From Dryococelus australis (taxonomy: Eukaryota > Arthropoda > Insecta > Phasmatodea > Phasmatidae), in NCBI GenBank assembly GCA_029891345.1, contig CM056993.1:225875924-225939923 (forward strand): 64,000 bases of DNA, in the 5' to 3' direction. A model generated the notes under the pieces. It was not told the origin of the DNA. It saw only the letters and a list, made by a program, of their open reading frames with translations, and made no database searches. Every line of letters begins with the position of its first letter. Position 1 is the stretch's first letter. The translations under genes were made by a program, and so were the position numbers. Of this stretch, positions 1,611-32,819 are shown in pieces.

Positions 1611-1714
1611 AGAGCATGTTAGTAGTAGGGTATACTTGCTTACCACGTAAGGGCATCTGGCATCGGAGCCAGAGACAGGAGGCCACCATGTTGTGAGGTC
1701 ACCCGACCGCCATA

Positions 1715-1862
1715 TTTTTTTCCTCAAATTTCCCTTTTCCCCCCAAAATTAATTAAATTTTCCTAAAAATTTCCTTTTCCCTAAATCTTACATTTTCCCT
1801 CAAAATTTCCCTTTCTCCAATTTGCAAAATAAAGACCTCCAAAAATTTCCAATTTTTCCCGT
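1715..1862 (+). repeat. TTTCCC-rich block, outer left arm of A
   Basis: Irregular repeats of a roughly 15-20 base unit alternating AAATTTCC and CTTTTCCC. They follow a GC-richer tip that contains a GCCRCCAT-type motif (1682-1732). The same block, same tip and same spacing occur in reverse at the right end of A. Confidence 0.65.
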
Positions 1863-2127
1863 AGCAGGCAAAGAGATTAGCGGCTCCAAGCCAGGGATTA
1901 GCCAGAAGAGCAGGACTCATTACCTTTGACCGAAAAATCCAAATAATTCTAAAAAATTGCAAATATACCAATTAATTTTTAAAAAGTATTATTAAAATTA
2001 TTAAAGATAATAAATATTTAATATAAAAAAAATTATGTATCAAATTTACTTTCCTAAGCTTTCCCCCTCTCCCGTCTCCAAAATGAATTAGTCAGCAGGC
2101 CTCCACCCCTCTCGCCAAACCCAGTCC

Positions 2128-2580
2128 GCAAGCATAATACATTACTAACTACTATCACCATATTGGATGCACACGACCTTGCCCTTGACTCCATGTTCTT
2201 GAATGACCTTGTAAACAACAACTCGAGAAGAATTATATAAAAGTCAACAAGTATAATACATTACTAAATATCGCCAACATATTACATACAGACTACCCTG
2301 ATCTTGACCACGTAATCATAAAATAAATTGAAATCAAAAACTCGAGAAACAATACATAAAAGTCAGGAAACATATCACATTACAGATTGCTACCACCAAA
2401 TTAGATGCAGACACTACCTCGACCTTGACTCCATGACCTTGATTACAAAAACTCGGAAAAATACATACAATTCAGCAAGAATATCATATTACAGACCACG
2501 AACACCATATTAGATGCAAATTACATTGACCTTGACTGCATGACCTTTAATGACTTTGAAAAGAAAAACTCGAGTAAAAC
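2128..2580 (-). repeat. About 118-bp minisatellite, left arm of A
   Basis: About four tandem copies with starts near 2131, 2250, 2369 and 2487. Each has a TAATACATTAC-like start, a CCATATTRGATGC core, a GACCTTGACTCCATGACCTT core and an AACTCGAG end. The reverse-strand counterpart lies at 6840-6918 and 18144-18365. Each unit carries matches to the TCAAGGTCA monomer nuclear-receptor site, exact at 2434-2442 and 2527-2535 on the minus strand. Confidence 0.75.
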
Positions 2581-3269
2581 CTATGCGAAGATGTAGAACC
2601 TAGCCGAGATGATGTATCTTTCACGACAGTCGTCAAACTAAGCTTCCCAGATTACCTCCCTACTGCTTATAATGTACGTATATGCAAACCCTATGATGTA
2701 GTATTGACATTGAACTTATTAATACATTGTGCGGACACCGAATAGCCAATCACCGAGTTGCTACGTGATTTCAGCTGACCAATCGCATAAAGGCATTGAC
2801 ACATTACTGACAGGCAGGTAGGCAGGCTTTAGATGCTAGTTCCTTGATCACATTACCTTACAGTTAAATCTTCAACAGTTTCTTCCAGGCTAGTTCTTCG
2901 CTCGCCTATAAATTATGGTCACACTTAAAGCAGACAACTGACTCCTGTTTTCAGATCGACCCCTCACAAGACTGACCCATTGACCCATGAACCATGGCCC
3001 ATTCAATCATTGACCCATTAGGACCCACGATTGTGCTGCTGATTGCTATTGCACTGCTAAGTGCGGTGCTGATTGTGACTGTGGTGCTTAAGTGCGTGCT
3101 AAATGAGGTGCGGATGCAAGTTAAAAAAAAATATATCCCTCTGTTTAAAAATAAAATTATATACTAAAACCTCGAAAAGCTGAAAGGCGAACATTATATT
3201 TATCAATCTCGCTTTAAAAAAGTATATATCGGTGTCGGTATATTTCATCACTTCCTGAGTAAACTGTAT
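2580..3269. repeat. Conserved arm body of A, left copy
   Basis: Mirrors 6165-6835. It contains a stretch with CCAATC/GATTGG motifs (about 2745-2795, matched at 6590-6640) and a TATAAAT at about 2906, which could be core-promoter-like. A short tandem tract at 3035-3115 of GCACTGCTAAGTGCGGTGCT type is longer in the right arm (6340-6500). No protein is recognised in this part. Confidence 0.5.
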
Positions 3270-3530
3270 TTACACATTGCAATAAAACTGTCTAGAACAA
3301 CAGCAGGCTCCCACCACGATGCACAACTTGGACTTTGCACTGAACAATGCTTCCCATTTGGTAGTCACGTATAAAAGACTGTTGGTACAGACCACCCTGT
3401 CATGCCGGCGAACATTTAGAAAATAGGTGAAAAGTCGATCGCAGAATCGACACTGACGTTGGCCATTTAGCGATGATACAGGTCGTGGCTCCATGGTCGT
3501 TGAGGTCAATCCTTTGTATTTGCAGTTCAT
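3270..3530 (-). pseudogene. C2HC zinc-finger coding relic, left arm of A
   Basis: An 86-codon open stretch. It contains a finger-like pattern C-x2-C-x12-H-x4-C (CRFCDRLF...RRHDRVVC, about residues 27-48), followed by an AKSK segment. The right arm encodes a related, degraded version at 5880-6162. Finger-like relics also occur in element B (27949-28455), and possibly in C (about 23100-23240). I read this as a fossil of a gene captured or once carried by the foldback family. It has no complete gene context, and its function is unknown. Confidence 0.4.
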
Positions 3531-3559
3531 GTTCGCGGTATAGGAGCACTCTGAAAATA

Positions 3560-4095
3560 CCCAAATACTTGTTCGCCCAAGAATAAAACAGGCATGTGCT
3601 TACATAACGATGCGTTATTTAAATATGATTGTAGGCATATGAATATAAATATAAACGTTTCAGTTATTTGTATTTTTCCATATTTAAACATGGTTCATTA
3701 ATATGTATAAAATAAACAGCAAATAATTTTATATGTCGTATTTACATGTCTAAACATAATTGTGTAGAAAAAAATTGAAATTAATTTTATAATAATTTTA
3801 TATATAAAATTATGTATAAAATTAAAGTGAAAACAATTTTTTTTTGAAACTTATATACCTATACCTTTATATAATTATGTACAAAACCAAATTTTAAAAA
3901 AATTGTTTTTTACTTATTTTTATAGGCCTACCTATAAATAAACTTATTATGGATATGGTAAATTGAAAGATTTTATATTCCCATATTTATATACTTATAC
4001 ATATTTATATACCTATACATAATTTTGTATTAAATAATTTGAAATTAAAAATTATTTTCCATATTTATATGTACATACATATCTAGAAGTAGTAC
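3560..4095. repeat. AT-rich stretch inside left arm of A
   Basis: More than 80% A/T, with repeated ATTTATATACCTATAC-type words. The right arm has only a short counterpart (about 5765-5820), so this part either expanded on the left or was lost on the right. No gene is seen. Confidence 0.5.
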
Positions 4096-4104
4096 GAAAA
4101 TGTA

Positions 4105-4290
4105 TGTTTGGGCACAAAGGCGTGGGGCGTCAGAGCCAGAGCCACACGGCCGCCATCTTATTACATCACCCGATCAACATTTTTCCCTTTTTTCCCTCAA
4201 AATATTCCTTTTTTCTCGAAAAATTTCCCCTTCTCCCTAAACATTTCCCTTTTTTTTTTCCTTAAGAATTTCCCTTTTTACTTCAAAAAA
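4105..4290 (+). repeat. Inner tip and TTTCCC block, left arm of A
   Basis: Begins with TTTGGGCACAAAGGCGTGG, continues with a GAGCCAGAGCCACACGG segment and GCCGCCATCTT (YY1/Pho-like), and ends in a TTTCCC-rich block. It is mirrored at 5572-5760 and resembles, in direct orientation, the outer tip at 1650-1862. Confidence 0.65.
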
Positions 4291-5571
4291 GTTAGAAACA
4301 CACAAACTTGTAAACAGACACAAATATTTGCTTGTTATTCAACAACGTGGGGATTATCGACCATGAAAGAGGTGGTTCTGATCATAAGAACAGTTAAGTA
4401 TCGGGGTTATATCAGATGATGTGATGAAGTGCTTTCTTCTGAAAATGTATTTACACAATAATAATAAATCATTATTATAAAATAGTTTTTATTAATTTTC
4501 GTGTGTCGTATCCTGCTATTGGCCTTATTTTTTTAATAACAACATTATATATTTTTGGTTTTTTAATAAATTAAGCTTGTAGTGAGTCATGCGTCATGCA
4601 TTATCATCGCAATTATTCGAAAAAAAATTTTTTTGAAACATAGGAAGGAAAATTGCAATAGTCGTCACCTAGTAAGAGGGCGGTAGCCTACCAAAATGGT
4701 AACCTCCTGTAATGAATAAACAAATTAACGAAATAACAGATTTGGTAGCCTCCAGTAACATATAAACAAAGATGACTGCCTCCAGTAGCATGTAAACAAA
4801 TGACGAACGAAAAACAAATATGGCCGCCTCCAGTAACTTATAAACAAAGCTGCCTGCCTCCAGTAGCATGTAAACAAATGACGAACCGAAGAAATCAAGA
4901 TGGCGGAATGAGTATATGTGACGGGAGTGGAGGCGACGGAGTCTGTCGTCTGTTGGATTCGAACAGAGGTGAGTAATTGGTGGTGTGGTGGGGAGATCTC
5001 AGGAAATTTAAGTCTTTTAATTAAATTTTTTATAAATTTCAAAGGGAATTTTTTTAAGGGAAAAGGGAAATTTCGAGGAAAATAGGGGGATAATGGCCAC
5101 AGGGGTTACAAACTTTTAATAAAAAAATTTTTTAATTTCATTATTTAAAAATACATTTTTAAACGGTTTTTAAATTTTTTAGAAGAGTTTTCATTAATTT
5201 TAAAAATAATTTTTTTACTAAAATTTTCATCAACTTTTAAATTTTGAAACTATTTTTTAACAAAATTTATTGTTACGGATTTTTTAAATAATTTCTGCTT
5301 TTCGAAGTTCAAAGGTCAAGGTCACAGGTAAAATGTCACGGTCGGGGTCAAAGGTCAAAGGTCATCTGCATACAATATTAATGCATGATGGCTGATGCTT
5401 AGGCCTGAGCTCTATCCTCTCTACCTGGTATCTATTTGGCATAGGGTATGCCTATAAAATCAACATGGCCACCACTGGTCTGTAGGTCCGAAGGAAGCCC
5501 CCCAAATGAATTAAATTGACAAATGTTGGATTTCAGAGGCTTGTTTCTGCACAAGGGGGGTTTCTACCATT
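4291..5571. other. Centre of element A, no gene
   Basis: Unpaired spacer between the arms. It holds a minisatellite (4668-4880), A/T-rich filler, and a GGTCA-rich patch at 5306-5368. That patch has an exact TCAAGGTCA (5316-5324) and a perfect AGGTCA-A-AGGTCA direct repeat (5352-5364). No coding potential beyond short chance frames. Confidence 0.5.
4668..4880 (+). repeat. Minisatellite with GCCTCCAGTARCATRTAAAC units
   Basis: About six imperfect copies of a 30-45 base unit. Each combines a GCCTCCAGTAACATATAAAC-like core with a variable AAGATG or AATGACGAAC spacer. Open frames across it on the minus strand (66 and 105 codons) are products of the repeat and not genes. Confidence 0.7.
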
Positions 5572-5760
5572 TTTGGAGGCTTCTAACTTTTTTGAGGGAA
5601 AAAGGGAAATTTTTAGGAAAAAAGGAAAATTTTAGGGAAAAACGGAAAATTTTGAGGGAAAGAAGGGGGAAAAAATGGCAGTCGTGTGATGTAACAAGAT
5701 GGTGGCCGGGCGGCTCTGGCTCCGACGCTCCACGCCCTTGTGCCCAAACATACATTTTCC
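5572..5760 (-). repeat. Inner tip and TTTCCC block, right arm of A
   Basis: Reverse complement of 4105-4290, reading GGGAAA-rich on the plus strand and then a tip with AAGATGGTGGCC and GTGCCCAAACATACA. It gives the inner pairing point of the foldback. Confidence 0.65.
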
Positions 5761-5879
5761 TACTACTTCTAGAGAAATTTAAATTAATTTTATATATTCC
5801 AATCTCATATATATGTAAAAATGCCTGCATGTTTTCTTCTTGGGCGAACGATTATTTGGGTATTCTCAGAGTACTCGCA

Positions 5880-6162
5880 TACTGCGAAGATGAATTGCGA
5901 ATACGAAGGCATGCCTTTTGACTTCGACGACTATGGAGCTACGACCTGCGTCATCTCTAAATGGCTGACTGCAATGTTGATTCTGCAATCGAGTTTTCAC
6001 CTATGTTCAAATTGTTCGTCAGCATTACAGCGTGGTCTGTACAAAGAGTCCTTTTATCACGCGACGACCGAATGTCGTGAATTGTTCAGTACAAAGTCCA
6101 AGTTGTGCATCGATCAATGGCGAAGCGTGGTGGAAGCATACTGTAGTTCTAGGCACTTTTAA
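5880..6162 (+). pseudogene. C2HC zinc-finger coding relic, right arm of A
   Basis: Mirror partner of the relic at 3270-3530, clearly alignable along its length at roughly 80% by eye. The finger region lies at about 5970-6045. Like its partner it is a decayed fragment, with no sign of expression or of a complete gene. Confidence 0.4.
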
Positions 6163-6339
6163 TGCAAAGTGTAAATACAGTTTACCCAGGAAGTGATAAA
6201 ATGTACTAATAGGGTTGGATATATACTTATTTTAAGCGAGATTATTAAATAAAATGTTCGCTTTTCAGCTTTTGGAGGTTTTAAAATATAATTTAATTTT
6301 AAATAAAGGGAATTATTTTAATTTGCGCCTTACACACAT

Positions 6340-6500
6340 GCGCGCCACATTTAGCACTGCACTAAGCACTGCAATAGCAATCAGTACCGCACTTATCACC
6401 GTACTTAGCACCATAGTCGCAATCAGTACCACACGTAGCACCGCAATCGCAATCAGCACCGCACTTAGCACCACAAATGCAATCAGCCCCGCAATCATAG
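6340..6500 (+). repeat. Minisatellite GCACCGCACTTAGCACC type, right arm of A
   Basis: Tandem GCAATCAGYACCGCACTTA-like units. This is an expanded counterpart of 3035-3115. It explains the alternating isoleucine/alanine/serine/threonine open frames on both strands here, which are not genes. Confidence 0.65.
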
Positions 6501-6918
6501 GTCCTTATGGGCCAATGGTCCAGTCTTGTGAGTGTTCGGTCTGACAACAGGAGTCAGCCTGCCTTCCTGCCTGTCAGTGATCTCTCAATACCTTTATGCG
6601 ATTGGTCAGCTGCAATTACATAGCAATTCGGTGAGGGGCTGGTTTGTGTCCGCACTATGTATATATAGCATAATACCATTGGTTCAAAGTAAATATGACG
6701 TCATAGGTTTTGCATATGCATATATATTATACGCAGTAACGAAGTAGATTTGGAGGCTAAGTTTGAAAATGGCTGTCGTGAAAGATACGTCATCTCAGCT
6801 AGATTCTGCATCTTCGCATATATTTTTTATAGAGCTTTTGTTTCCAAAGTCATTGAAGGTCATGGGGTCAAGGTCAAGATAGTATGCATCGAATATGGTG
6901 GCAACAGTCTGTAATGAT

Positions 6919-7522
6919 TGATGTGACCCCCGCTTTCATCAAATGGTCACACACCCACTAAGGAGTAATAGTCAAAGATAGCAAGGCAGTTTATGCAAAA
7001 CACTACATTTATTCTCTCCAAAATCTAATACAATCAATTACGCTTAAAAGGCACCTCACTTACTGCTATAGTACAATTACTGATACTGTTATCTCTACGT
7101 TCCAAGTTCAGAGTACAAGACAATTAGAGTTTAATCTAGCTTTTAAGGAGCTCTCAGAGTCAGCCATCACTATCCGTGTTTCAAACACCTAGGATGCCCT
7201 GATGGGATTTATATTTACCCTGTAAATCGTCGACGGCTGTGCCGACGCGCTCTCAGTGACTGCGTTCTCCAGGCGTCGATCTCGGACCGCAATGATGGCG
7301 GTCCTCTCATGAGCAGTCTCTTCGGCAGGGCCTCCGGCGCAGTCGGGAACAAGATGGTTGCGAGATACCTCCGCTCGCCCATTATATATGCTGGTGCCCG
7401 GCCTTGTTTGGATAAGCATTCCTCTCAGCTGTTTTAATTACTCAAAGCTCTAGTTGCCGAGGCTGGCTTCCTCCAGGCATCCGAGCTCGACCTGGCAACC
7501 CTTGACTGTGACGATCACAGCA
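6919..7522 (-). repeat. 3' LTR of the gypsy fossil
   Basis: Direct copy of 17535-18143. Read on the minus strand it has a TATATAAT box (complement of about 7382-7389) and an AATAAA (complement of about 7006-7011), consistent with U3-R-U5 order. It contains GATGGCGG and AAGATGG motifs (about 7294 and 7351) like those in the tips of element A. A weakly purine-rich tract lies just inside it (7523-7540). Confidence 0.9.
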
Positions 7523-8600
7523 TGGCCCTTCATCCTCGAAAACTCGTGCGTCCTCGCGCACTGATTGTATGTTGTATCTCCAGGGTGTTGCCAGTTGCGT
7601 GAAATTTGGGAGAGTGTTACAGATAGGCTTTAAAATAGATTTCTGTGCTTGGTTGTGCACACGTAAGAGTGAATATTTTATTATATGAATGAGCATCACT
7701 ACTGTGAGCTGTAATCATGTATAATACTAGAGTACATACATTTGTTAAGGTCACCTATTTTTAGTTATGACACTACAATGGTGTGGAACTGTCATTTAAA
7801 GACTAAAGTTATTTTACATACATATGTTATAGTTAGAAATTTTGAAAATTCTATAGCAATTAACTTGTATCGAAAGTTTTTTGTTAGGTGGATATAAAAC
7901 ATTATTTACAGGATAAACTTTCTTGTGGTTTGTCCAATTTATGTACAAATTGCAATTAATATATACAAGTTTTCACTGTGATATATATATATATATAATG
8001 TAAAAAAAACTTTGTGCGGGCAATATACTAATTACTACTAACAGAACTATTGTTTCTTGTTGACTGTGGAAGAGGAAGGAGCATGTTTAAGCACCGATTA
8101 TTAAGCTTCCATTAAATGTTGTAAATAAGTAAATAAATCCCAGCGCCGATCACAGGGGTACAGGGTTTTGGGTCAGACGGTCCACCACTTTTTGGTCAAC
8201 ATTCCACAATAGTCCCTCTGTGGTGTACTAACTGTAGTACTAATTACGAAAAAATATGACATTGCCATGCTGGGTTGAGAGTGTATTGGTATGTTGATAA
8301 ACAATACAGAGTACTAGTTTTCACAAGTGTAATTCTATCAAAAGTTATGAAAAAGAATTGATGTATGAGTCTTGAAATTCTTATTGTACATACTAATTAT
8401 GGTCGATATATTAAAATAATTACAATGTCTAAATGCTTACGGAAGTTAATTGGGGCCCCATCTGTTAATGAAATAAAACAATGGCGTTCTCGCCGCACGG
8501 AAGAATTCTACCTAACAGAGCTCTCTAGAGCTTACACTTTGATATATCTGACTGCATTACCGTATGCTACTCCACTCTGCTGACTTGAATCCTAATAACC
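7523..8600. other. Between env and 3' LTR of the fossil
   Basis: About 1.1 kb with no recognised domain, AT-rich with a short TA tract near 7983-7998. It may be 3' non-coding DNA of the LTR element or may include other inserts; I cannot tell. Confidence 0.4.
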
Positions 8601-10335
8601 TTTATCTATGCAGTCTTAACTGCTTTTTTCAATAACACCGCTTTTTTGACTCCTTTATAATACATTATAGCGAGGTCGATAGTGAGACCTATGATCGTCG
8701 CCATAGTTATGTAGTTTAAATGCTCTTGTGATAGTACGTAAAAATACTCGTTATTGAAATTGTAGAGAAGCGTAACTGCCTTGAGCATAATTTACTGTGG
8801 GTAGCTCCACGTTTAATATTTTCCAATCATTATTTATACTACCGTTTAACGAACAAAACGATATTCCTTAATCTGTTTTTAAATGTCTGACCTCAAAGTT
8901 ATTCTGTGTCAGCCAGTGTATGGGTATAACTTTGTGCGTGATTGGTTACACTGGGCTCCTTGGATCGCAAAATGTGTTGCTTGCAAGAGTGTAAATTGTC
9001 CTGACGTAAGTTTAGTCACATGGAACGTGAACTTCGAAACTGCAAACTGCTGTGTTGGGAATTTCTTTACTCAGAGACGTGTTTACGCAGCATAGCACCA
9101 ACATGTTGGGTCCATTAGTGATGACATATTTGTGTGGTTGTATAGTGTTCACGAATAAAGGATTACCTGTTACGCATGTGAATTTACAATGCCGGTACAG
9201 CTGTTCAATATTATTCAATTTAATAGCTGTTTTTAGGTAGTTTACCTGCAGACTATCGGCTGTTTGGCAGTATAGTAAACACAGTTTACCTGTTCCTGTG
9301 TGTTGGTTGCCCGACGTGTTTCTTGGGTGTTTGTCAGTGGCAATTACTTCGCTAGGAGTTTCAATGTGGCAGGTTTCATTAAAAAGTAAGAATAGTATCT
9401 TTGTTGTGCGAAATAACTGCCAGTTATTATTAGTGTTCTGTACAGGGACTTGGATCTCCAACAGCATTTGTGTCGTAGATATCATACATTCAGTAATGGG
9501 CATAATGTAATATTTTATAATCCCGTTGGTTGGAATCCTAAGTCTCAATTTAAAGTATTTAAGCGTAGCTTGCAGTTTTCTAAATCTAACTTTAGTGTTT
9601 TATGAGAAACTGCTTGCAATGGCATGTGATGACGTTGACAGTGCTGCATGAAAGTAGCAATTCTAACTTCATTAATAATATTATTCATCAGTTGCAGTAT
9701 GATACACGTTAACACCTGACATTGAATTTTCGCAATTTCCATTTCATGACGTTTGATAGTTACTTTATCTGACATATAATTGATTGCATGTGCGAGAGAA
9801 TTTACCTTAACTTCTACTTGTGTTTTAATTTCAGCTATTCCATATATTGACACGTTTAAATTCTTATTTGACAACATAATATTATTTTGCAATTCATTCA
9901 CCTGAATTGATAACATCTCGTCATTGGACAGCAAGGATTTTGGGTGATGGGATGTAAGGATGTAGCAGCACCAGCTAGCGACATCCCCAATGAATGTAAT
10001 TCCATGCTATATTCGGAAACTGACATCTCATTTAAAAATTCGTCGACTAAGCTAATTGTTGTGTCGTTGAAAAATTGGTGAAGTGCTTCTGCGTTGCCGC
10101 AGACCGTACTGTTCCGCATGGCGCAGGCGCTATGAAGCCACATCTGAAGATTGGTTGGTAAGCTGGGCTGCTGGAGCGGGGTGCTATAGACCAGCGACAA
10201 CGTTTCTTCATAGTGGAGCTGTAGAAACAGCTCTTGGAAGTACACTCCAGCGTGTGTCCGGTACAGTTGTTCACTTGCGGCCACTTGGGATAAGAGCAGC
10301 ACAAGTAAAATTGTGCTGGTGGCTGTATATCCCAT
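8600..10335 (-). pseudogene. env region of the gypsy fossil
   Basis: Membrane-glycoprotein fossil. It opens with a hydrophobic signal peptide (ILLVLLLSQVAA core). Next come a heptad-rich part, a cysteine-rich ectodomain-like part with N-x-S/T sites, and a hydrophobic anchor followed by basic residues near 8615-8700. Position after integrase and layout fit the F-type (baculovirus-like) fusion glycoprotein of insect errantiviruses, an inference from build and not from a search. It is broken in several places. Confidence 0.6.
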
Positions 10336-10672
10336 GATGGATTTGCATTACCTGTAACATAAGCGGTTAGCATTAACATCAGATATTAGCGATTTTTCTG
10401 TCTGTTGTGCTAACTGTGTCGATTTTCGTGTGACCACATTTATGTATTTCGATAGCGATGGTGGATTGTCCTAAGATATCATGGATCCTGTAAGGACCAC
10501 AGTATTTGAATGTAAGGGGTTTTTGCCTAGCGTGGGTTTTGACCCATTCATATTGTCCTATTTTGAGTTAATTCGTTTTGAATTTGGCGTCAACAATTTC
10601 TTTTTGCTTTCGTTGTGATGAAATTAAATTTATTTTGGCCTATTCGCGCTCGTGATTGAAGTGTTCGCACCA

Positions 10673-11745
10673 TTAACTGCCACGTTCTAAATATACATGA
10701 GTGATAACATTTGAAGGTTGGACTGCTTCAACACCAGGCAAAAGGTAAACTGGGCTATACTTTGTGATTTGGCTGTAAATCGAATTGTAATTGAAAATAA
10801 TATAGGGTACGTACTCGGTCCAGTGGGAGGGATCTTCATTGGCACACAATGTGAGTAGTTGTGAAAAAACCTTATTAATTTGCTCTGCCAGTCTGTTGCA
10901 TGCGGGATTATATGCCGATGTTTGTAATTTCATACTTTGTGATTTTTTCAATAACTCCACGATTAGATCATTGTTAAATTATGTGCCTCTGTCTGTCAAA
11001 ATTGTTTTTGGACACCCAAATTGGAGTATAACTACCTTTACAAAATTGGCACAAGTGAAAGCATCAATTGACTTTAATGGTTTAGCGACTGCATAATGGC
11101 TGAAAAATTCCGTCATTACAAGTATATATTTATTTCCCTTCGCACATGTTTGTAAAGAGCCTTTGGCATCAAAACCCCACGCAGGGTGAAGGGGGGGGGG
11201 GAAGAGGATTGGTGCCATCTGTCCGATACTTTTCTGATTCAAGGGTGTTATTTTTGACACACTGGAGTTTTTATGTGCAATTTAACATCCTTATTAATGG
11301 AATCGTAATAATAGGTGTTTTTAATATTTTGCAAAATTTTGAATTGACCAAAGTGACCTCCGCCGAGAAGGGCGTCATGGTGTGCAGTTATATCAGGAAA
11401 CTAATACTGGGGAACGAGGGTCAATTTATTCTCACCTTCTGGGGTACGTAACTTCATACATATTTCGACGTTCCCAGCAATGGCCTAACATATCACTAAA
11501 TGACGGTATTTGGGGGTTGCTTTTTCCGGATCAGTTAGAGCAATTTTTATCTGTTGTATGTGTGGATCCTTAAAGTATTCGTCGAGAAATGGGGACATGT
11601 TGTTTTGACCAAGGGGTGCTATGAGTAAATGCGAACCAACTTCAATTTTAATGTATTCTTGTTCATGTAAGTAGCCAGGGAAGTAGCGTGGTATATTGTT
11701 GTGAGATTTGATGACTATTAGCAATTTAGGTCGAGATCTACACAT
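10673..11745 (-). pseudogene. Integrase region of the gypsy fossil
   Basis: The catalytic-core pattern of Ty3/gypsy integrases is visible: a KYILVMTEFFSHYAVAKPL segment, then a CPKTILTDRG segment, then a QTSAYNPACNRLAEQINK segment that normally follows the third acidic residue. An HHCC-type front part may lie toward 11600-11745. Broken, non-functional. Confidence 0.8.
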
Positions 11746-11779
11746 GTTATTTTGTAGTCATGTGCCTCCATAGAAATAT

Positions 11780-12880
11780 CTACATTGTAATGCTGCTGCA
11801 AAATATCACCATACCGATCTCAGTATTTTATTCCACCTAACCAGCTATCCACCACGTGGTAATACTCAGCTACCAGGGTTATGAAGACTTGCCAGTATGT
11901 TGTCCCCTTCGATGGCGAGCGAGGAGCTGACGTGCAGTGTGACTGTACTGCTGGACTTCGGATTCAGCACTGCATGACGCCGCCAGCTGACTTCCCCCCT
12001 CCCCGCAACTCCTTGCTGGCTACCACCCTTCATTGCAGTTGGCCGTCGATAGGATCTACAGTGTGGCGGCATACGTAATCAAGAGATTTAAATGAACTGA
12101 TTTTTGTACTTGTGGCAAACCCTCCATACTGTTATTCCATGTTCCTCCACACTCTACAGCACTAAGGTTGGACTATATATGATTGGTGTTGATACCCAGA
12201 CAAGACACACCACACCAGACATGCGACAGGAGGAAACACATACCACACTCACATTTAAAGTGTGAAAGGGGAAAAACAGGCAGAAGGCATTTTCCTGTCA
12301 TGTTTTTAATTGAGACATTTTAATTGGCATATTTTAAATTTTAAATACAAGCAAAACACAAGTCTGGGCATTTATATGAAATTTGAGTAATATTTCAATT
12401 TTTGGCAATGATTTTGTACTAAATTTTTATCAATGTTTATATGTAGTCCTTTTTGGGAATAGTGGTAAATTGTAACAGATCTATACTCATGTGCCCCTAT
12501 TGGCACACTTTGTGTTCTTGGAGATTGTTATCAGGCATAATTGTATTTAACCAGTCTTTATAAATTTCGTATAACATATTTTTGGGGCATTGTATAAAAA
12601 AAAAAGAATTTAGCCCAATAACAGAAATAAAACTATATTTGTGGTTTGTTCATTTCTCACCATTTTGGAGGTAAAACTGCTACAGTATTAACGGGATACG
12701 AAAAACCTTTGTTTTTAAACTCTGCTAAACATCTGTTTAACTCTGATGAGCATCTAGAGCTTGATATGACAGTTGGTGAGAGTTGTGGTCACTACCACGG
12801 AGTTTGAGTTTCCTCCAGGTGCTCTTACTTCCATGACAACATTTACTTGGTATAGTGTAGTAATTATTTTGGCGATAGCC
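11780..12880. other. Spacer between RNase H and integrase in the fossil
   Basis: About 1.1 kb without a recognised pol domain. A GC-richer patch at 11860-12075 differs in composition from its surroundings and could be a later insertion. No TIRs or target duplication were seen. Confidence 0.3.
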
Positions 12881-13259
12881 TGTAAGTGTAAGTACTATTC
12901 ACTGATAATCATTTTGGCCACGCATACCTTATCGGTTGTGTGAAGTTCATTCTTTACAAGGGGTTTTATATCCGCCCCATTGTTTGTGACATATTTGGCA
13001 ATAGTAGATTTAATTCGTGATTTTTGTTCTAATCTTGAAATAGCTATTTGACAAGGGCCTTGTAAAAGGATGTGCAACTGATGAGTTCTTTTTTATTAGT
13101 GTAACTGTTTGTTATTTACAGATTGTCAAATAGTGTCAGCTTTTCTGGCAGTAGTTACTCTCCTCATGGCATCAGCCAGTACATTTAATTTTCCTTTAAC
13201 TATATCTGCTTCAAAATCATATTCGGTAGCTCAATTGACATTTTTTGTATTCTAATATT

Positions 13260-14420: not shown

Positions 14421-14869
14421 TTGGTTTCTGTAAGTTTCGTGATGGAGCTGGCAAACTTGCCTTTGTATGATTGTTGTAATTCTTGTAGTGGTTATCTTTG
14501 CTGTACTGGTAATATAGTATTAATATTACCGAGCGGTAGGCTGGGAGTTGCCTTTTAGTTGCTTTCTATATCATTAATGTAATATTCTATCGAATTAATC
14601 ATGTCGTATTCGATTGGATTGGTATTTATAGGTACTTATAGAATTTAATTTTTTGTTTGATGCATGAATAAACATTATGTTCTTATTTAGTACTGGTACA
14701 ACATCATATTATTTCATAATGTCGATGTCAAAGATAACATCGAGCTTGAGGTTATCTATTAATAAAAATTCCTTTTGAAAGGTCTTTTCCGAAATGCTAA
14801 TATTTGTAGTTTTTTTTTAAATTTCGGTACTTCAATGTCTTGTGTGATGCCGATAAGCAAAAATGTTTC

Positions 14870-20331: not shown

Positions 20332-20420
20332 AAAATTAAAACATTACCATGGCATGGAGGGACAGGAATTCGAACCCACGACCTCTCGAATAGGAGTCGG
20401 ACATTCTGATCATTCACCTA
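20332..20420 (-). other. tRNA-like patch in left arm of B
   Basis: On the minus strand, a TGTAGGTGAATGATCAGA stretch (box-A-like) is followed by GTGGGTTCGAATTCC (box-B-like). Its mirror lies at 31265-31345. Stems are weak, so it is a tRNA-derived relic at most, not a tRNA gene. Element C inserted right at its 5' edge. Confidence 0.35.
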
Positions 20421-21331
20421 CAGCCAGCAAACACATCCTGTTGGCAAAGTGTCAGCAAATCGGCGGGCTGGCACCAGCACTGTCGGCAACTGTCGCTTAT
20501 ATGCAAGAATATAGCCATCTGACAACGCCATGATGTCTTTTTTGAGACGGATTGCTAGCCGTCATGGCAAAGACAAAGACCTCTATGGTATCCTATCAAT
20601 ATTATAGCTGCTAAATTTCTTCAATATTTGAAGTACACTAAAACGTATAATTTTTATGGGTATTTTTATGGTCATATTTTCATCTAAAAGTTAAAATGTC
20701 TTTACCAGGTACCATAAAAACTGTATTTGCTGTAACTTTGTGCTGGGTAGTGAAGAACTTGTTACTCTTTGTGAAATAGATTTTTCGTTCATGTGCAAAA
20801 CTTGTAATATTAAGGATGTTTGATACCACAATATTAATAATTTTAAATTTTTACCAGATATTTTTTAACTTGTACGTATTGTATGTAATATATTTTTTCT
20901 AAAATACAAGAAAGCTTAAACTTTATACATTGTGAATAATTTAATGTAAATTACAAAAGTTTTCTGTTCGATGAAGCGGCAATAACAAATACTAAGTTGT
21001 ACAAATGAAGACTTTACAGAATAAACTTATGCAATGGTCTACTGTTTGACATATATGGAATCACAAAATAACTCTTCACACACATGTGAACAATGTTTTC
21101 ATATACATGGCTTGTAATTTGGTGATTATATAAGTCATGTAGAAGCCCACTGCACTTTTTAACTTTGAAAACTTTTTTTCATTTGTACGACCACCGGACT
21201 ATTTCGTTTGCAAGCTTCAGCAAAAATTAACGTTATACAATCCATGCTTAAAATTAATACTTTATATTTTAATAGAATTTATACTTTACCTTATAATTTG
21301 TGTCACGATATATTCGAAATTACTGGTGAGA

Positions 21332-21411
21332 GTCGAGAATATACTCAGTGGAGTAGGTTACCATGTTGGACTGTTGACTAAACGATCATAGGTTCGAATC
21401 CCATACTCGAC
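21332..21411 (+). tRNA. tRNA-like sequence (possible Asn anticodon), probably a relic
   Basis: An 80-base stretch. GTCGAG at the 5' end can pair with CTCGAC at the 3' end. ACTCAGTGGAGTAGG resembles the D-arm box A. GGTTCGAATCC is a perfect box B, and the middle loop reads CTGTTGA with GTT in anticodon position. The anticodon stem is poor and the length is above the usual 73-76. Since it lies inside a mobile element, I take it as a tRNA pseudogene or SINE head. Confidence 0.4.
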
Positions 21412-21545
21412 AAGCTAAATATTTTCACATAATTTAATGTGTTGAAAAGTAAATGAAATTAATGTATGTAAAGAGGAAATAACAATTACTAAAATCTTTA
21501 AGCGAAAAAATTTAAGTTTCTGTAAGGTTGTATTGCTTATTGCCT

Positions 21546-22280
21546 GGACATCATGCCACCATAGACCAGGCAACATTGCGACATATAGTTGGCAAAATCC
21601 CGACATCATGACGACAACCAGCTGTTGCAAACCCGCCACCGAGGCGACATCCAGCTATCACAAGTCCGGTATTGAGGCTACATCCAGCTGCCGCAGACCC
21701 AGTATTATTGTGGTATCCAGCTGTCGCAGACCCGGAATTGTGGCGACATCCAGACGTTGAAGGTCCGGCATTATGATGGCATCATGCCGTCACTGGCCTG
21801 GCATCGTGGCGACATCCAGCCATCACAGGTCCAGCATTGTGGCCACATCCAGCTGCTGCAGACCTAGCATCATTGCAATATCCAGCTGTCGCATGCCCGG
21901 CATTGTGGTGACATCCAGCCATTACAGGTCCGGTATTGTAGATACATCCAGCTGCCGCAGACCCAGCATCATTGTGATATCCAGTTGTCGCAGGTCCGAC
22001 ATTGTGGCTACATCCAGCTGCCGCAGACCCAGAACCATTGCGATATCCAGCTGTCGCAGGCCTGGCAGTGTGGCGACATTCAGTCGTTGCAGGTCCGGCA
22101 TTTTGGCAACATCAAGCCGTCATTGGCCAGGCATCGTGGCGACATCCAGCCGTCACTGGCCCGGGATCGTGGCGACATCCAGCCGTCACAGGATCTGCAT
22201 TGTGGTTACATGCAGCTGCTGCAGACCCATCATCATTGTGATATCCAGCTGTCGCAGTCCCGTCATAGTGGTGGCAACTG
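21546..22280 (+). repeat. 33-bp minisatellite, first array of C
   Basis: About 22 copies of a unit like CAGCTGTCGCAGACCCGGC plus ATTGTGGCGACATC. Because 33 is a multiple of 3, frames stay open (202 and 145 codons on the plus strand), giving 11-residue peptide repeats (SSCRRPGIVAT type). No start context, domain or conservation suggests a protein. Confidence 0.8.
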
Positions 22281-24735
22281 TGCCATCTCAAACACGACAG
22301 TATTTTTTAATTGCGTGTTTAATTATGGCATTAAGAAACTATGTGTCTACAATTTTTTATGCGACTATATTAATGTTTTAATTATGTCACCATATTTTTG
22401 TCTTTTGTGTTTGCATCAATGATTTGTGCATTATGTATCTCGATAAATTTTTGATGTATTATTTTTTAACTTTTTTTGAAACATAATTTTAAATGTTTTG
22501 ATCAGTTACTAAATTATAGAGAATTATCATAGATTTTCGATTTGTTACTTAACTAAATATTAATTACTGTCGGTATTCATGTTAAGTGCCTATATTCTGA
22601 GTTTTTTTTATCAAATGTGTTGTTACTTTCATTACCTTTATTATGATCGGAAATTAAACTTGTATTACATTTTTATCTACATATGAGTTATCTGATTAAC
22701 AAGTAAAGTTTACTTCCTATATGTTTATTTATCTCCATTTTCATTTTCATCAAGTAACTTATATACTGTTAACATTTGTTTATCTGGCCATATATAATCG
22801 ACTATAGTTCTTATCTCAACCTACTTCATTTGAGTTTATTAATATTTTAACATTTAAACCCTTTTTTTTAAGTTTCATTTCAATACTGTTTAAGTCGTAT
22901 TTTCAAAGCTTCATTTTCAATCTCGTTAGCGGCATCCAGAACCGCATTTCATGTCCTTGTTTTCATTTTTCACCGGACGTGCTGTGAAACGTAGCGCATT
23001 CCTTTTGTCGCAACAGCCATCGTTATCCCCTTCCACACTTCATGTTGGCGTGGCTGTGTTCGCAAAGTCCGCGGTGATCATGCATCCAGTGGGTGACTTT
23101 GCATTAAAAAATGTCTTTTGTTCACGTGCTCACTTGCCAGTTTTGCAGATCTTTCTCATGTTCAAGTCCCTTTTGCAAAATCCACGACATCTAGCGGCGG
23201 TCCCGGAACTATCTGTACCTGGGTTTGCTGCAGTGGCATCCCCTGGTGATCGTCTTTGGTACAGACTTTGTTCCTAGGCTCACTGCCGTCATGACGTGTT
23301 GGCGACATGCGGCGACCGTGAGGCGGTTTGTGGGGACATAAGCCCCTTTGAAGTTTTGCAACAAAATGTTGTTCATCATGTAGTGGAGCCTAGTAGTAGT
23401 TTTTGTGTGTTTATGGGAATTTTAAATTGTTTTTATTTTGGTGCTTCTCTGCTTGATTTCGGCATCCTTCTGGATAATGTAGTATTTCTCGTCACTACCC
23501 TCATGGTGAGTACTTCTTCAATTTGTTTTGCCTCGTTTGTGTCACTTATTAATTATTTATTAGCTATTTTTATACAATTGTATTGTGTGTTGTCATGAGA
23601 AATCTTCCCGGGTTTCAACTTTCTACCTGCTTGACGTCCACGAGGTTTCCTGTTTGGCTCGTGCGTTTCTTTTCGTATCCAAGTCTCTTTATGATCAAGT
23701 ATATGCTATTTTTCTTGGATATTTAAAATTTCGCCTTCTTCAGCATTCAAGTGATGTTGGTTCTAACACTTTGGACAGCTAAGTGGATTAACCATTAGAA
23801 TTAATAATTTATCTATTGCATGCACAAGTAATTTACATACTGTGTAGTTACCACTTTATCTGTGTGGTTTAATCTCTTTATAACTTTGGCAATAATGTTT
23901 ACTTTACTCTTTTGTTTCTTTTTTTTAAATAAAATTTTTTCGTTGTTTTGTTACGCACATTAACATAACTTAATTGACATGCATATTAAAAATAATGCAT
24001 GTTTTATATATAAATTTTATACCATAATGTGCGGCGATCTCTTTTGAATTGTTTAAATGCTAGCCATACGTACTTTTATATATTTATATATCATTGAAGG
24101 TTAGCATTTTTATGATACGGTTAAGTTTTTTATCTTAGCCCTATGTTCAAGAAGCTCAAGTGCATTATATTCTGAAAACTAAGTTTTTAACGTTTTATAA
24201 ACGCAATATTATACCTTCATATTGCTGAAAATATTTAATTGTAGTCTATCATTATCAAAATGTTATATTTAATACTCATTTTACTACTTGTTGATTTATT
24301 TATGCACACCAGGGTGTAACATTGTTTCGTTGTTTATATATGTTTTACATTGATCTCAAAAGAAAATAATAAATTAAAAAAAAAAAAGAGATTATTTAAG
24401 CACACCACCACAATGAACGTCATTTTACTAATAATCTAGTTGATTTACCTTTGGTCCTAAGATTGTTTACCATTTGACAAGCAGGTATTAATTCTTGCCA
24501 ATTTATAGGACATTTTCATCCTTTTGTGCCATGTACGATTCCCAGAATGTATCACTAATGTGTTTCTTATGCCACTTCTATAACTATATATGTATATGTT
24601 ATTTCTCAATAATTTTATGTTACTGTAGCCACCTTTATGCAGTGTTATGTGGTGATTCTATTTCTAAGGGCTGAGTTTTTCCCTTTTGAGGTGGATCTAC
24701 TACTAATTTTTTTCCCCTTATTATCGTAAATCGGC
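22281..24735. other. Middle of element C
   Basis: Mostly AT-rich DNA. A GC-richer part (22920-23350) encodes on the minus strand a possible decayed finger relic (CRGFCKRD-LNMRK and FFNAKS-like words, about 23100-23240). This recalls the finger and AKSK segment of element A. The plus-strand 108- and 100-codon frames (22951-23277, 23296-23598) show no recognised domain. Confidence 0.35.
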
Positions 24736-24736
24736 A

Positions 24737-25025
24737 CACATCCAGTTGTCACAGGTCCAGCACCGTGGCGACATCCAGCCGTTGCAGGCCCGGCATTGTG
24801 TCGACATCCAGCCGTCACAGGTCCTACATTTTGGCGACATCCAGCTGTCACAGGTCCGGCATTGTAGCTACATCCAGCTGCCACAGACTCAGCATCATTG
24901 CGATATCCAGCTGTCACATGCCCAGAATTATGGCGACAACTAGCTGTCGCAGGCCCGGCATTGTGGTGACATCCAGCCGTCTCTGGTCCGGCATTTTACG
25001 AGATCCAGTTGTCGCAGTCCCGCCA
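24737..25025 (+). repeat. 33-bp minisatellite, second array of C
   Basis: About nine copies of the same 33-bp unit and same orientation as 21546-22280, 2.5 kb away. Since they are direct and not mirrored, they are not arms of a foldback. Confidence 0.8.
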
Positions 25026-25844
25026 ACAGTTAAATATACATTTTGTGTCTTATCGGTTCCATTCGAGAATATTTTTGATGCTGTTGGCAAACAGTTAGCC
25101 GACAGTCCATATTTATATCTGCCCGCTTCCAGCATAGGATAGTGGGCTAGAATTAGCTGGCCATAGTTAGTCGGCTAGCTTTTACTGGCCCGATTCTTGC
25201 TCATGCCTTTCGTGTTTGCTGGCAGTCACCACGAAACAGACATGCTTAAATGTTATATTAAATACTTCTGTTACTTTCTGAATCCCATGTGCCTACGTTC
25301 GTATTGATTGTTTTTATATGTTATTTATAAATGATTATAGAGCAGACTGCATGTTTTCGCAATTCGTGCTGTAAGGAAAAACATATGTACATCTATAGGC
25401 GATTATAATTCGCGATTTATTAAGGCCAGGCTCATTAAATTCGGTTTACAAGTATCATTTCTAGATCCAGGAATGTATGTTTAAACCCTTTATTACCATA
25501 GTGATTAGCATTCATATTTGCTACATAGTAATTTTTTTAACGGAGACCGTTTATAACAGACTGTTTACGATACGGGATTAAAATACAATTAAGTAATACG
25601 TTAATATGTAAAACAATATATTAACATATATATTTATACAAAAAACACACAAAAATGATTCCAACTACTTATATACTTGCTGATGTTGACCTTGACACCC
25701 TCTATTTGTTCCTGGTAACAATATTACTCTTCACAGGCATAGGGATATATCAAACAAAAAAAACATTTTTATTATTCAACTACCAGCCCACCATCGCGTC
25801 GCTCAGATTTCATGGAGTTGTTGAATTACATAACTATATATGCG

Positions 25845-25975
25845 ACTACCCGTGACTACATGCGACAACTTGCGGCAGCCTGCGACTACCTGCGACAACT
25901 TGCGGCTTGCCTCAATCTGCGACTACCCATGACTACCTGCGACTATCCGTGACTACCCGTGACTACCAGATACTA
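25845..25975 (+). repeat. Short tandem repeat GCGACTACCYGTGACTACC
   Basis: About 10-11 base units (GCGACTACCT, GTGACTACCC, GCGACAACTT). It is absent at the matching place in the right arm of B and thus is a left-arm gain. Confidence 0.7.
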
Positions 25976-26351
25976 TTATTTTAATTAAACATAGCATATG
26001 TCCATCTGGAAGAATGTAGCTGCCTAATAGTGAAACAATTATAATAATCTGCCCTGTAGTTTCGTTTCACATGCTTAGAAATCAGAAAAGTAGTTAATTT
26101 TTCTCCGGCATTGTTTACAAATCTAGTAATTTCTCAATAATTTTTTATTTATATTAAACGTAGCCTATGTCCATCTGAAAGAATGTAACTTTCTAACCGT
26201 GAAACTATTATAAGAATCGGCAATGTGGTTTTAGTTGGGCATGCATAGAAAGCAGCCAAGTAGGTAATTTTTCTCCGACTTGTTTCATAAATATTGAAAT
26301 TTCTCAAGGATGTTTTTTTTTTAAATTTAACAGAGCCAATGACCATCTGGA

Positions 26352-27433
<1,082 letters not shown>

Positions 27434-27559
27434 ACACACACATATTTATATCTGTGTGTGTGTGTGTGTGTTTGTATTTGGCATACCTCCGAAGACAAAC
27501 ATAAAAAAAGAATCCTTAAATTTTTAACACCATACACGTAATTTCATTACAGCAGCATG

Positions 27560-28200
27560 CACACTTTTAATGTAGTCACTATAATCTGCTTATACACCGC
27601 TTAAGACAGTCTACATTAGCAAGCGTCCAATCAGAAACCTTGGCCATATATTCTTCTTCTCCACGACAGAGTATTTATTCCAAGGCCTCTAAGCCCCTGG
27701 GATACAATAACCGTTGTACAGTGCTTGATTCGCAGTCTTGAATGCTCTGCGACTGATTGCTTCATCCAAGGGCTGAGGCTTTTTGTAGGCACACTCCAGC
27801 CAAACATAGTATTTTATGGGACCTCCTTCAACTTCTTCTGTTGATTGATTATCCTTTGCTTAATGTGGTTCAGGTATGTACATATGTCTTCCGTACCTAC
27901 AAAGTTATTTCCAACCACGTAATACTTTAAAGTGCCCTTGAATGTCGATTATTTCAGGTAGAAACCGTTTGATGTGGTTTCGCCAACAGCTAGTACAAAT
28001 CGTTCCTTAGCTGCAGAAACTGTACCTTTACTGTTCTTCTTGTCTCTCTTTAGGTTATCGCCGCATTTGAACAGATGTGTGTATTTGTCACACCGTTGCA
28101 TATCACATATGCACATATCACAGGAAGGACCCTTCACACAACTAGTTCTTTCATGCTTCCTCGCACTTTGCACCTCCGACTTCTTCGGATGGATCACCTA
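27560..28200 (-). pseudogene. Finger-gene fossil, left of the centre of B
   Basis: Mirror partner of 28255-28840. It reads outward from the centre of B on the minus strand: a cysteine-rich finger-like part (28050-28180), a VLAVGET-NGFYLK segment, and further decayed coding sequence. Together with its partner it resembles the front part (finger, then spacer, then a KGS-containing stretch) of polymerase-type genes found in Polinton-like and related large elements. That family call is a low-confidence inference. Broken in many places. Confidence 0.35.
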
Positions 28201-28254
28201 CCGCAATTTTACCATCGGAGACTTTGCCAAGGCTTCGTTGTTGCTATTGTGACA

Positions 28255-28840
28255 AGGTATTGCCTACAGTCACGGTGATAGGAAGCATGAAATAACTACT
28301 TGTGTGAAGGGACCTTCCTGCGCTATGCAGCTATGCATCAACTGCAAGCGTCTGTTCACACTTGGTGATACGCTGAAGAGACATAGCAAGAACTGTAAAG
28401 GTTGAGTTTCAGCACCTAAGAAGAAACGACTTGTACTAGCTGTTGGTGAAACCAAATCGAACGACTTCTACCTAAAACAATCTGCATTCAAGGGCACTTT
28501 TAAAGGATTATGTGATTGGATATAACTTTGTAGGTACAAAACGCATAAGTTTGTATGTGGACCATATTAAGCAAAGGATAATCAAACAATTAACAGAAGA
28601 AGTTGAAGGAATGTCCCATAAAATACTATGTTTGGCTGGAGTGTACCTATGAAAACCTCAGCCTTTGGATGAAGCAATCAGTCGCAGAGCATTCAAGACT
28701 GCGAATCAAGTACTGTACAATTTTGACTGTATCCCAGGAGCATTAGAGGCCTTGGAAGAAATACTTTGTCATGGGGAAGAAGAATATATTGCTAAGGGTT
28801 CTGCTGCAAAGATACTACATTGATGGTGTGAAAAATTTAA
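28255..28840 (+). pseudogene. Finger-gene fossil, right of the centre of B
   Basis: Reads outward on the plus strand. Visible parts: a C-x2-C-x12-H-x3-C finger (CINCKRLFTLGDTLKRHSKNC is its approximate extent, 28325-28400), VLAVGETKSNDFYLKQSAF, and a last open segment with ALEALEEILCHGEEEYIAKG. Better kept than its left partner. Possibly derived from a Polinton-like or related large element (inference). Fossil with several interruptions. Confidence 0.4.
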
Positions 28841-29471
28841 GAATTCTGTTTTTATGTTTGCCGTCTGAAGTATGTAGAATATGTAAATATATATATGATT
28901 TCAAAGAAAAAGTCTTTTAATTTCTCGTAGGTGTTATATTTTGTCTACTTCCTCTGATATAGAGAATAAGATGGTGCTGGGTTTAGTCACATAAACATAC
29001 ATTCAAAAAAAGCCGAGTAGGATAGTTGTCCCTACAAAACCTTCCTGATAATGAATAATTAGCAGATAGCGACTGTGTTATAGTTAGACTTCAAGAGAGG
29101 AGACCTGAAATGAAGCTGAGAACTTTTTGCTTTTTTTTATAACTTTACATACTATCTAAGAACAACTTGAAATATATTAATTAAATAGGTTATAAAACCT
29201 AATAATAAATACAGACTTTTTATTTGACATCACCCTATGCCTACGAAAAGTTATATGGTTATGAGAAAGAAATTCAGAAGCCAAGTCAGTATCAGCAGTT
29301 ATATAAGTAATTAGTTGGGTTCATATTTTAAGTGTCTTTGTAGTAATATATTTTAATAAATTTTAAAACATTTTAAATGTAATATTTTATTTCCTGCATC
29401 GTAACCAGTCTGTTATAAACGGTTCTCGTTAAAAACATTAATATGAAGCAAATATATAGGCTAATCACTAT

Positions 29472-30998
<1,527 letters not shown>

Positions 30999-31264
30999 AT
31001 CACTATGCTTATAACGGGCTTAAACATGCATTCCTGCAGCTAGAAATGATCCTTGCAAACTGAATTTAACGTGCCTGACACTAAGAAATCGCAAATTATA
31101 AACACACATACATGTACATATTTGTTTGCTTTAGCCCGACTTGCAAAAAAACGCAGCCACCTACATAATTATTTAAAAAGAACATATAAAGCCCATCAAT
31201 GCAAGCATATGCACATTAAATTCATAAAGTATAAAAGACTTTTAATCCAACCTATAAGCATCAC

Positions 31265-31345
31265 TGTTCGTGGCGACTGTAGGAGAGTAGTCAGAGTGCT
31301 CGACTACTAATGGAGAGTTCGTGGGTTCGGCACACTGTCCCTCTG
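31265..31345 (+). other. tRNA-like patch in right arm of B
   Basis: Mirror of 20332-20420: CTGTAGGAGAGTAGTCAGAG (box-A-like) then GTGGGTTCGGC (box-B-like). Stem pairing is weak. It supports a tRNA-derived piece being part of the ancestral arm. Confidence 0.35.
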
Positions 31346-32224
31346 TGAGATTTTTTTCAAATCTCACTCGCTGTCCTGCGAAAGTGTGAAATTTATATTA
31401 TTTATACTTTTAAAGTGGATTAGAATTAAAAATACATTTTCGATGTATTCAACTGCATTTTATGAAATGTTTGGGCATTTTTCAAATAATAAATGCAATT
31501 AATTTAAATAATATATATATGATTATTTATAAATGTATCGATTCCTAGACGTCCGATTGATTTGACAAGGCTTCACAGCAGCTGACTTGCGATCGTGGTC
31601 AGTTCGCACGCACTTGTCTCGGGGGGTCATTGATACTGGTCGCCTCTTCCCCTGCGGTGCCCAACGAACGTTGCCTCGCTCTTAGTTTGTCATAAAAAGT
31701 ACATATGTCTCGCGTGCCTGTCGATGCACGCGAGCGTGGTTACAAAGCCAGATGGCTTCATTTTAAATTAATTGTCTTCGTACAACAGAGATACAAACTG
31801 AAGAAAGTAAATATATTTAAAAAAATCGATTCAATGGATTTATAAAAATGGAGGATTAAAATTTGATTTTTTTTTTTAAATTCCTGCCTGGAATGTACTT
31901 TACAATGATTTTTTATTTACTTTCTCATTTATGCAAGATTACATCTTCAGATTTGTAAATAAATATACACATTGGCGATTTTTGCATTCTGTCAGGCGAT
32001 GAAGGAGTTACATATGTGGCTGGCAAAGAAGTCGACAAGAAAGAAAGGAAAGAAATGGAATGAGAGAGAGAGACAAGATGGAATTACAGACAGTTAAAAT
32101 GGAATGATAGAGCATGAAAAAAGTACTAGAAGCCTGATCGGTAGTAGGCTTAAAGTATGAAGCAAGCATACCAAATATTTAAAGTTCGAAAATAGCCTTT
32201 CTGTGGCTGGCTGCTGCATATTCT

Positions 32225-32385
32225 AGGGCAAGGAATTTTGAGGGAAAACTGGGAATTTTTGGAGAAAAAAATATATATTAAAGAAAAAGTTAAATTTTGT
32301 GTGTGTTTTAAGGTTAAAGTGGCTGATTTTGAGGGAAAAATTTGAATATTTTTTAGGCAAAAATATTCAAATTTTAAGGTGGCAG
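32225..32385 (-). repeat. TTTCCC-rich block, right end of B
   Basis: GGGAAA-rich on the plus strand, with AAGTGGCTGATTTTGAGGG mirrored at 19365-19385. Just outside lies a GGTGGCGTGGGG-type tip (complement of 32392-32410). Confidence 0.65.
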
Positions 32386-32819
32386 CCAGAACCCCACGCC
32401 ACCTGTCCCTGCCCTCTGAGCTATAAGTTCCATAGGGCATCTACTACGATAATATATCTTACACTATCAAAAATACGATAAAATATCATACAATACAATA
32501 AAATGACATATAGTATGATATACAATAAACTATCATAAAATACAATATCATACAATGCAATGTAATAAAATATCATGCAAAACAAAATAATATCGTTTTG
32601 TGTCATGCAATACTATAAAATATGATGTAATATTATACCATATATTATACACTATAATACTAATAATAAATGCATATGGAGAGGACCCAGGGTGAGGCGA
32701 CTCTTCCGAGTGACGGGCTTTCCAGTGTGATCTGAATAGTGGCAATTCAGATCAGAAATGTGGTAAGGGAGGAGTGGCTAGTTAATGGAACAAACGATAT
32801 GAATAAGAATTATTTCAAT

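Follow-up and report, generated by a model that had tools for sequence, protein, structure and literature searches.

Old foldback transposons in the stick insect Dryococelus australis, probably non-autonomous and with Maverick/Polinton-type ends

Mirrored elements at the locus

The window analysed here is a stretch of 64,000 nucleotides from the stick insect Dryococelus australis (D. australis), C1:225875924-225939923 in an assembly of 3.415 Gb and 646 contigs that was also the target of the genome searches. It contains two neighbouring foldback elements, A and B, and a younger sibling that is nested in the loop of A (Table 1). The three are probably old non-autonomous foldback transposons with ends of the Maverick/Polinton type. 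The observations behind this reading are AGTAGTAGG-like ends with their complement, 6-bp flank duplications, TTTCCC about 100 bp inside the ends, mirrored arms, and mirrored copies elsewhere in the genome.

Self-comparison of the window revealed inverted arms in A and B that score 92-424 bits. Ten local dinucleotide shuffles of positions 1601-32600, counted without shuffled hits starting in two microsatellite areas, reached at most 45.4 bits, which rules out a chance origin of the mirror signal and bears out a preliminary description of this DNA that had considered the build too patterned for chance. The arms differ at 15-22% of sites, with Kimura two-parameter (K2P) distances of 0.19-0.23 in A and 0.17-0.26 in B. 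Divergence falls from tip to centre as a weak trend that is no proof (block permutation p of 0.02 for B and 0.06 for A). The TTTCCC block that had been noted in both elements does recur in mirrored form. In six marked-out tip blocks, covering 1,525 bases in all, the hits read TTTCCC at the left tips (16 of 16) and GGGAAA at the right tips (10 of 10), and the remaining 62,475 bases of the window contain 36 such hexamers.

The six tips of A, the sibling and B are AGTAGTAGG or decayed versions of it, and the first TTTCCC lies 94-126 bp inside each of them. The sequence AGTAGT is exact at 1621, 4088 and 5767 and is decayed at 18936 and 32445 (5/6 letters each) and at 19251. It occurs at 51 sites in the window, and at four of these there are at least three TTTCCC within 260 bp. 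Every one of the six TTTCCC clusters in the window stands behind a tip. The flanking hexamers agree in 4/6 letters for A, 6/6 for the sibling and 5/6 for B. The window has 248 pairs of AGTAGT/ACTACT-like sites whose flanks match in 5-6 letters, and only the 4088/5767 pair of the sibling has alike ends, with a likeness of 0.93 over 40 bp; the next best pair reaches 0.57.

The elements had been described as giant, with boundaries at 1612-18950 and 19200-32480 that are corrected here to 1621-18936 and 19251-32445. The mirrored structures are genuine; the length of the supposed giant single elements is explained in large part by later additions, namely a long terminal repeat (LTR) element, the nested sibling and two inserts. 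A stripped of its inserts measures about 4.4 kb and consists of two arms of roughly 2 kb (2,006 and 1,915 bp) with little sequence between them, and B without its two inserts measures about 6.9 kb. The plan attributed to both elements stands for the mirrored arms and TTTCCC blocks but not for the finger-gene relic, which is confined to B: three D. australis finger proteins match 27600-28815 in tblastn searches and none matches A (1621-18936) at E<=1e-3. Minisatellites had also been counted as part of the plan; both 33-bp arrays, in direct orientation, lie in the insert of B at 20424-25222.

Table 1. Features of the two foldback elements, their insertions and a further tip (window coordinates)
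Feature	Position	Strand	Basis or remarks
A arm pair, outer	1621-2375 vs 18936-18144	inverted	self-comparison
A arm pair, inner	2488-3626 vs 6915-5794	inverted	self-comparison
B arm pair 1	19251-20423 vs 32445-31277	inverted	self-comparison
B arm pair 2	25223-25508 vs 31279-30996	inverted	self-comparison
B arm pair 3	25498-25776 vs 29471-29201	inverted	self-comparison
B arm pair 4	26491-26799 vs 29186-28879	inverted	self-comparison
B arm pair 5	27620-28150 vs 28815-28275	inverted	self-comparison
A left 6-bp flank CATGTT	1615-1620		right flank CATTTG 18937-18942; 4/6 letters alike
Left arm of A, comprising tip AGTAGTAGGG, TTTCCC block 1729-1860 and deep arm	1621-3626	+	self-comparison, sequence
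Hexamer TCTAGA	4082-4087, again 5768-5773		6/6 flank of nested sibling; palindromic
Nested younger sibling foldback in A's loop, 1,680 bp	4088-5767	+	carries tips and 6-bp flanks of its own
A right arm, inner part	5794-6918	-	self-comparison
Decayed gypsy-type LTR retrotransposon in A's right arm, 11.2 kb	6919-18143	-	direct repeats, domains
A right arm, outer part: GGGAAA block, tip (reverse complement AGTAGGAGGG)	18144-18936	-	
B left 6-bp flank ACGATG	19245-19250		right flank ACGATA 32446-32451; 5/6 alike
Outer left arm of B, AT-rich, with TTTCCC block and decayed tip	19251-20423	+	self-comparison
Unrelated insert in left arm of B, 4.8 kb	20424-25222		ends CCAGCAAACAC / GTGTTTGCTGG; 3-bp CAG flanks
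B left arm, middle	25223-25776	+	self-comparison
Young local inverted duplication round AG microsatellite	26352-27433		98.6% over 364 sites
Finger-gene relic, left copy	27600-28170	-	matches D. australis P0001-P0003 (tblastn)
Finger-gene relic, right copy	28178-28815	+	head to head with left copy (tblastn)
B right arm, inner parts	28879-29471	-	self-comparison
Unrelated insert in right arm of B, 1.5 kb	29472-30996		end motif GGGGCGTAT
B right arm, middle and outer: GGGAAA block, tip (reverse complement AGTAGATGCCC)	30996-32445	-	
Further tip of the same plan	60376-60570	+	CATTAG followed by AGTAGTATAAAAAGG; TTTCCC four times, offsets 99-182

Relatives of A across the genome

When the left arm of A was used as a genome query, 40 of 10,116 first-look candidates were scored, and these yielded 57 matches spread over many chromosomes; candidates are not to be equated with copies. 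Nearly all of these matches start past query position 500, and the outermost stretch of A is accordingly much less conserved. Twenty loci of 9.9 kb each were fetched by arm similarity, and at least seven of them (L024, L026, L031, L033, L037, L038 and L040) contain sequence of the A arm in mirrored form. The check proposed in the preliminary description, a genome-wide search for further mirrored copies, came out largely in favour of a family. Complete elements with AGTAGTAGG-like tips were found at six of the 20 loci, with flank agreements of 6/6 in L027, L028 and L037, 5/6 in L038 and L040, and 3/6 in L033. In L027, L028, L033 and L040 the tips are also the ends of the inverted repeat, and the flanking hexamers at the fetched loci include GTTGTG, TACATT and CCTAGG. 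Five more tip-like pairs, one each in L021 and L023 and three in L036, were rejected and excluded from the counts of complete elements, because their flanks agree in 4, 0, 1, 0 and 0 of 6 letters and they lie off the repeat ends.

The mirrored fraction of the length is 0.90 in L033, 0.70 in L038 and 0.65 in L040, and it is low in L027 (0.23), L028 (0.26), L037 (0.17) and the nested sibling (0.28). With three copies mirrored over 65-90% and three over 17-26%, the A-type family comprises plain as well as palindromic forms.

Relatives of B and identical tracts between arms

A search with the D. australis finger protein gave 212 matches in the genome (150 scored of 9,087 candidates), among them one of 99% on C2. 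At least three close inverted pairs of finger matches occur among the matches listed, and two of these loci, L041 and L044, were fetched. L041 (C1:201928533-201939094) has arms of 3.7 kb that are 98.0% alike, ends picked by eye as AGTATATT, and flanks TAATTT / TAATTA that agree in 5/6 letters. The arms of L044 are 3.4 kb long, 80.3% alike, and reach the edge of the fetched stretch. Both loci repeat arm 1, arm 2 and the finger centre of B in the same order in both arms, and arm 4 was matched only in L044. The mirrored order of B, whose recurrence elsewhere had been put up for checking, is therefore present at both of the loci fetched by the finger gene. The third of these inverted pairs, at C2:250177980-250187201, is convergent rather than divergent.

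In the two relatives about 4.8 and 6.2 kb separate the finger-gene copies; in B the distance is about 0.1 kb, the P0002 match starting at 28164 in the left copy and at 28178 in the right copy. Because the relatives have 4.8 and 6.2 kb at this place, the centre of B is better read as a deletion, and B looks like a centre-deleted member of its family as judged by this comparison. A snap-back origin for the short centre of B itself is weakened for the same reason. The loops of L041 (6491-9292 of C1:201925900-201941800) and L044 (3578-6613) are unlike each other. The loop of L041 has a short open reading frame (ORF) with more finger-like motifs, and that of L044 contains a putative ORF for a pogo/Tigger-type transposase.

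The arms of L041 are identical over a run of 2,925 bp, yet their outer 160 aligned sites differ by 21%, and L044 has an identical run of 234 bp inside arms that differ by 13%. Shuffling of the differences gave maximum runs of 443 bp for L041 and 76 bp for L044. Identical tracts in otherwise diverged arms suggest arm-to-arm gene conversion in these two elements. The tract of L041 is also the one observation that speaks for an assembly artefact, in which palindromic reads or collapse would have produced the mirror; an assembly effect is possible for this tract and unlikely for that of L044. As an explanation of the mirrored elements in general an artefact is hardly credible. It is refuted for A and B, as the differences between their arms are far beyond read error; moreover, single arms are broken by inserts that have their own duplications, and the mirrored copies differ between loci.

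Affinity of the elements

Vertebrate Mavericks have (AGT)2//(ACT)2 (or (AG)3//(CT)3) ends, terminal inverted repeats and 6-bp duplications (PMC8097293). The end motif is present at the window tips and at six of the 20 fetched A-type loci, terminal inverted repeats are present, and 6-bp duplications are found that are imperfect in several copies because the copies are old. Across ten tip pairs (A, the sibling, B, the six complete loci and L041) the flank letters agree at 51 of 60 positions. Arms long enough to mirror much of the element are seen in A, L033, L038 and L040 and not in L027, L028, L037 or the sibling. The preliminary description had recognised no named transposon family; the ends match the Maverick/Polinton superfamily as published (PMC8097293), and Maverick is reported to be abundant in two stick insects (PMC5691397). 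The intact vertebrate elements differ in being 12.7-24.6 kb long with 7-8 conserved ORFs and repeats of 46-1,447 bp (PMC8097293), whereas the stick-insect elements are 1.7-10.6 kb long, such genes were not seen in them, and they are partly mirrored over most of their length.

Several results weigh against a Maverick/Polinton affinity or against parts of it. No Maverick gene (PolB, integrase, capsid, ATPase or protease) was found in the scanned window ORFs and relic pieces, a scan of selected ORFs only, and the rve match in the window belongs to the LTR element and not to the foldbacks. If such genes are absent everywhere, the foldbacks would be non-autonomous derivatives at most. The left tip of B, ATTATA, is strongly decayed and retains 3/6 letters of AGTAGT, and the outermost ~500 bp of A has one short match elsewhere among the scored candidates. 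No complete tip pair was seen in the 9.9 kb fetched at 14 of the 20 A-type loci; sharp ends with target duplications, which had been named as support for a family, were found at the other six. The flanks TCTAGA and CCTAGG are palindromic and possibly part of the repeat, although TACATT and GTTGTG are not palindromic. Complete copies are not always palindromes, as L027, L028 and L037 show. The search for conversion tracts, made in seven elements, gave none in A, L038 and L040, and the runs in B (46 bp) and L033 (62 bp) are borderline, each being equalled in 3 of 1,000 shuffles.

It is unlikely, though the most serious of the alternatives, that the elements form a separate cut-and-paste foldback superfamily that converged on AGT ends and 6-bp duplications independently of Maverick proteins. 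This would fit with the lack of any Maverick gene found in a foldback and of a Pfam match above cut-off for the finger gene, and foldbacks are reported to arise independently in different lineages (PMC4079207). However, end motif and duplication length both coincide with published Mavericks, and Maverick is abundant in other stick insects (PMC5691397). Galileo, a P-superfamily element of Drosophila, likewise has long inverted arms, variable length and internal duplications, but its duplications are mostly 7 bp (7-8 bp in the P superfamily), against 6 bp here, and it has a P-type transposase (PMC4168063). Ginger2 shares the 6-bp target preference and has an integrase close to that of Polinton in trees; its TGTNR ends and RTATAY targets (PMC2836005) differ from the AGT ends and the flanks GTTGTG, TACATT and CCTAGG seen here.

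A Mutator-type family, to which most named foldbacks belong, is disfavoured and very improbable. The Mutator-type Tetris elements resemble the present ones in their modular, long mirrored arms with internal tandem units and in having no ORFs (PMC4079207). Their duplications are 8-10 bp (PMC4079207), whereas the flanks at the AGT ends repeat over 6 bp, and the sole 10-bp duplication, TAATCACTAT at 29462-29471 and 30997-31006, belongs to the unrelated insert of B at 29472-30996.

Other features of the elements and the window

The left arm of A has ~119-bp tandem units carrying TGACCTTGAC motifs. The arms of the nested sibling (4088-4323 and 5767-5541) have a K2P distance of 0.149, and its interior has matches of 76-84% at other genomic places (40 scored of 7,877 candidates). 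The LTRs of the retrotransposon in A (6919-7525 and 17535-18143) are in direct orientation and 90.4% alike. Its domains are RT_RNaseH_2 at 4.9e-20 and a weak rve at 4.1e-5, which is under its curated cut-off. A target duplication of this element (6919-18143) was looked for and not established. Near its 3' end, three overlapping ORFs on the minus strand (9012-10347) gave no Pfam match above cut-off; they may resemble an insect errantivirus envelope.

In B, the segment 26491-26799 lies inside the young inverted duplication and doubles as the inner part of the left arm. The pieces of the finger relic had a best E of 0.014 against Pfam, below the standard of every cut-off. Homologue searches with three raw finger frames gave 0 of 3,051 candidates at E<=0.01, a 117-residue region of a longer raw frame gave one of 131 candidates, and a follow-up with that single matched protein gave three of 53, the query itself counted. 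The viral and prokaryote collections gave 47 and 179 pattern stretches, none of which was confirmed. The S-G-W-T-L motif that ends the relic may resemble polymerase polyproteins of Maverick-like elements. Translated matches at 39607-39791 and 56424-56570 are to another stretch of P0002 and apparently represent a different dispersed repeat.

The tip at 60382 is the fourth AGTAGT site with a TTTCCC cluster and is read as marking a further element; together with the 118-bp tandem array that follows it, it spans 60376-61457. A second end was looked for in the window and not found. Position 62706, with flanks at 4/6, was rejected as its right end because no TTTCCC block is nearby and the end sequence is unlike. 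The tip-like pair 46420 / 50181 was rejected on flanks that do not match. Two weaker pairs of inverted repeats, at 33310-36303 and 48854-50956, are 75-87% alike in their best blocks and have no AGT tips. The window contains no tRNA genes or Rfam families at gathering score.

Proposed mechanism

As Maverick-derived elements, the foldbacks would move as linear DNA, and an autonomous Maverick would supply in trans the integrase that inserts them. The mirror may be born when one end is copied back on itself by a snap-back strand switch during protein-primed linear replication; alternatively, it may arise by extension of the terminal repeats. We lean towards the snap-back switch because Mavericks encode a protein-primed polymerase (PMC6431247). 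After insertion, gene conversion between the arms would still homogenise some of them. In the B family each arm appears to hold a copy of a dispersed finger gene, the two lying head to head; B itself has apparently lost the ~4.8-6.2 kb found between the gene copies in its two relatives. Later insertions account for the present size of A and B.

Palindromic defective genomes of linear DNA viruses have one end mirrored round a short centre and offer a possible parallel. A wider proposal, tentative and rather less likely than the reading of the elements as Maverick-ended foldbacks, is that D. australis harbours a widespread, palindromic, gene-poor lineage derived from Mavericks, with its own finger gene head to head and arms kept alike by conversion, comparable to snap-back defective viral genomes.

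Significance

The origin of the mirrored arms of foldbacks is an old question. Foldbacks with an assigned source are reported to be mostly Mutator elements, with Galileo, from P, as an exception (PMC4079207, PMC4168063), and Galileo foldbacks invert chromosomes (PMC4168063). No Maverick-derived foldback is named in the titles listed by the open-licence literature searches. If it is true that a Maverick lineage makes foldbacks, these would come from a replicating, virus-like class of transposons and not from the cut-and-paste class, and a replication-based origin could be tested across the many copies of a single genome. Tracts of identity within old arms additionally suggest how such palindromes stay alike.

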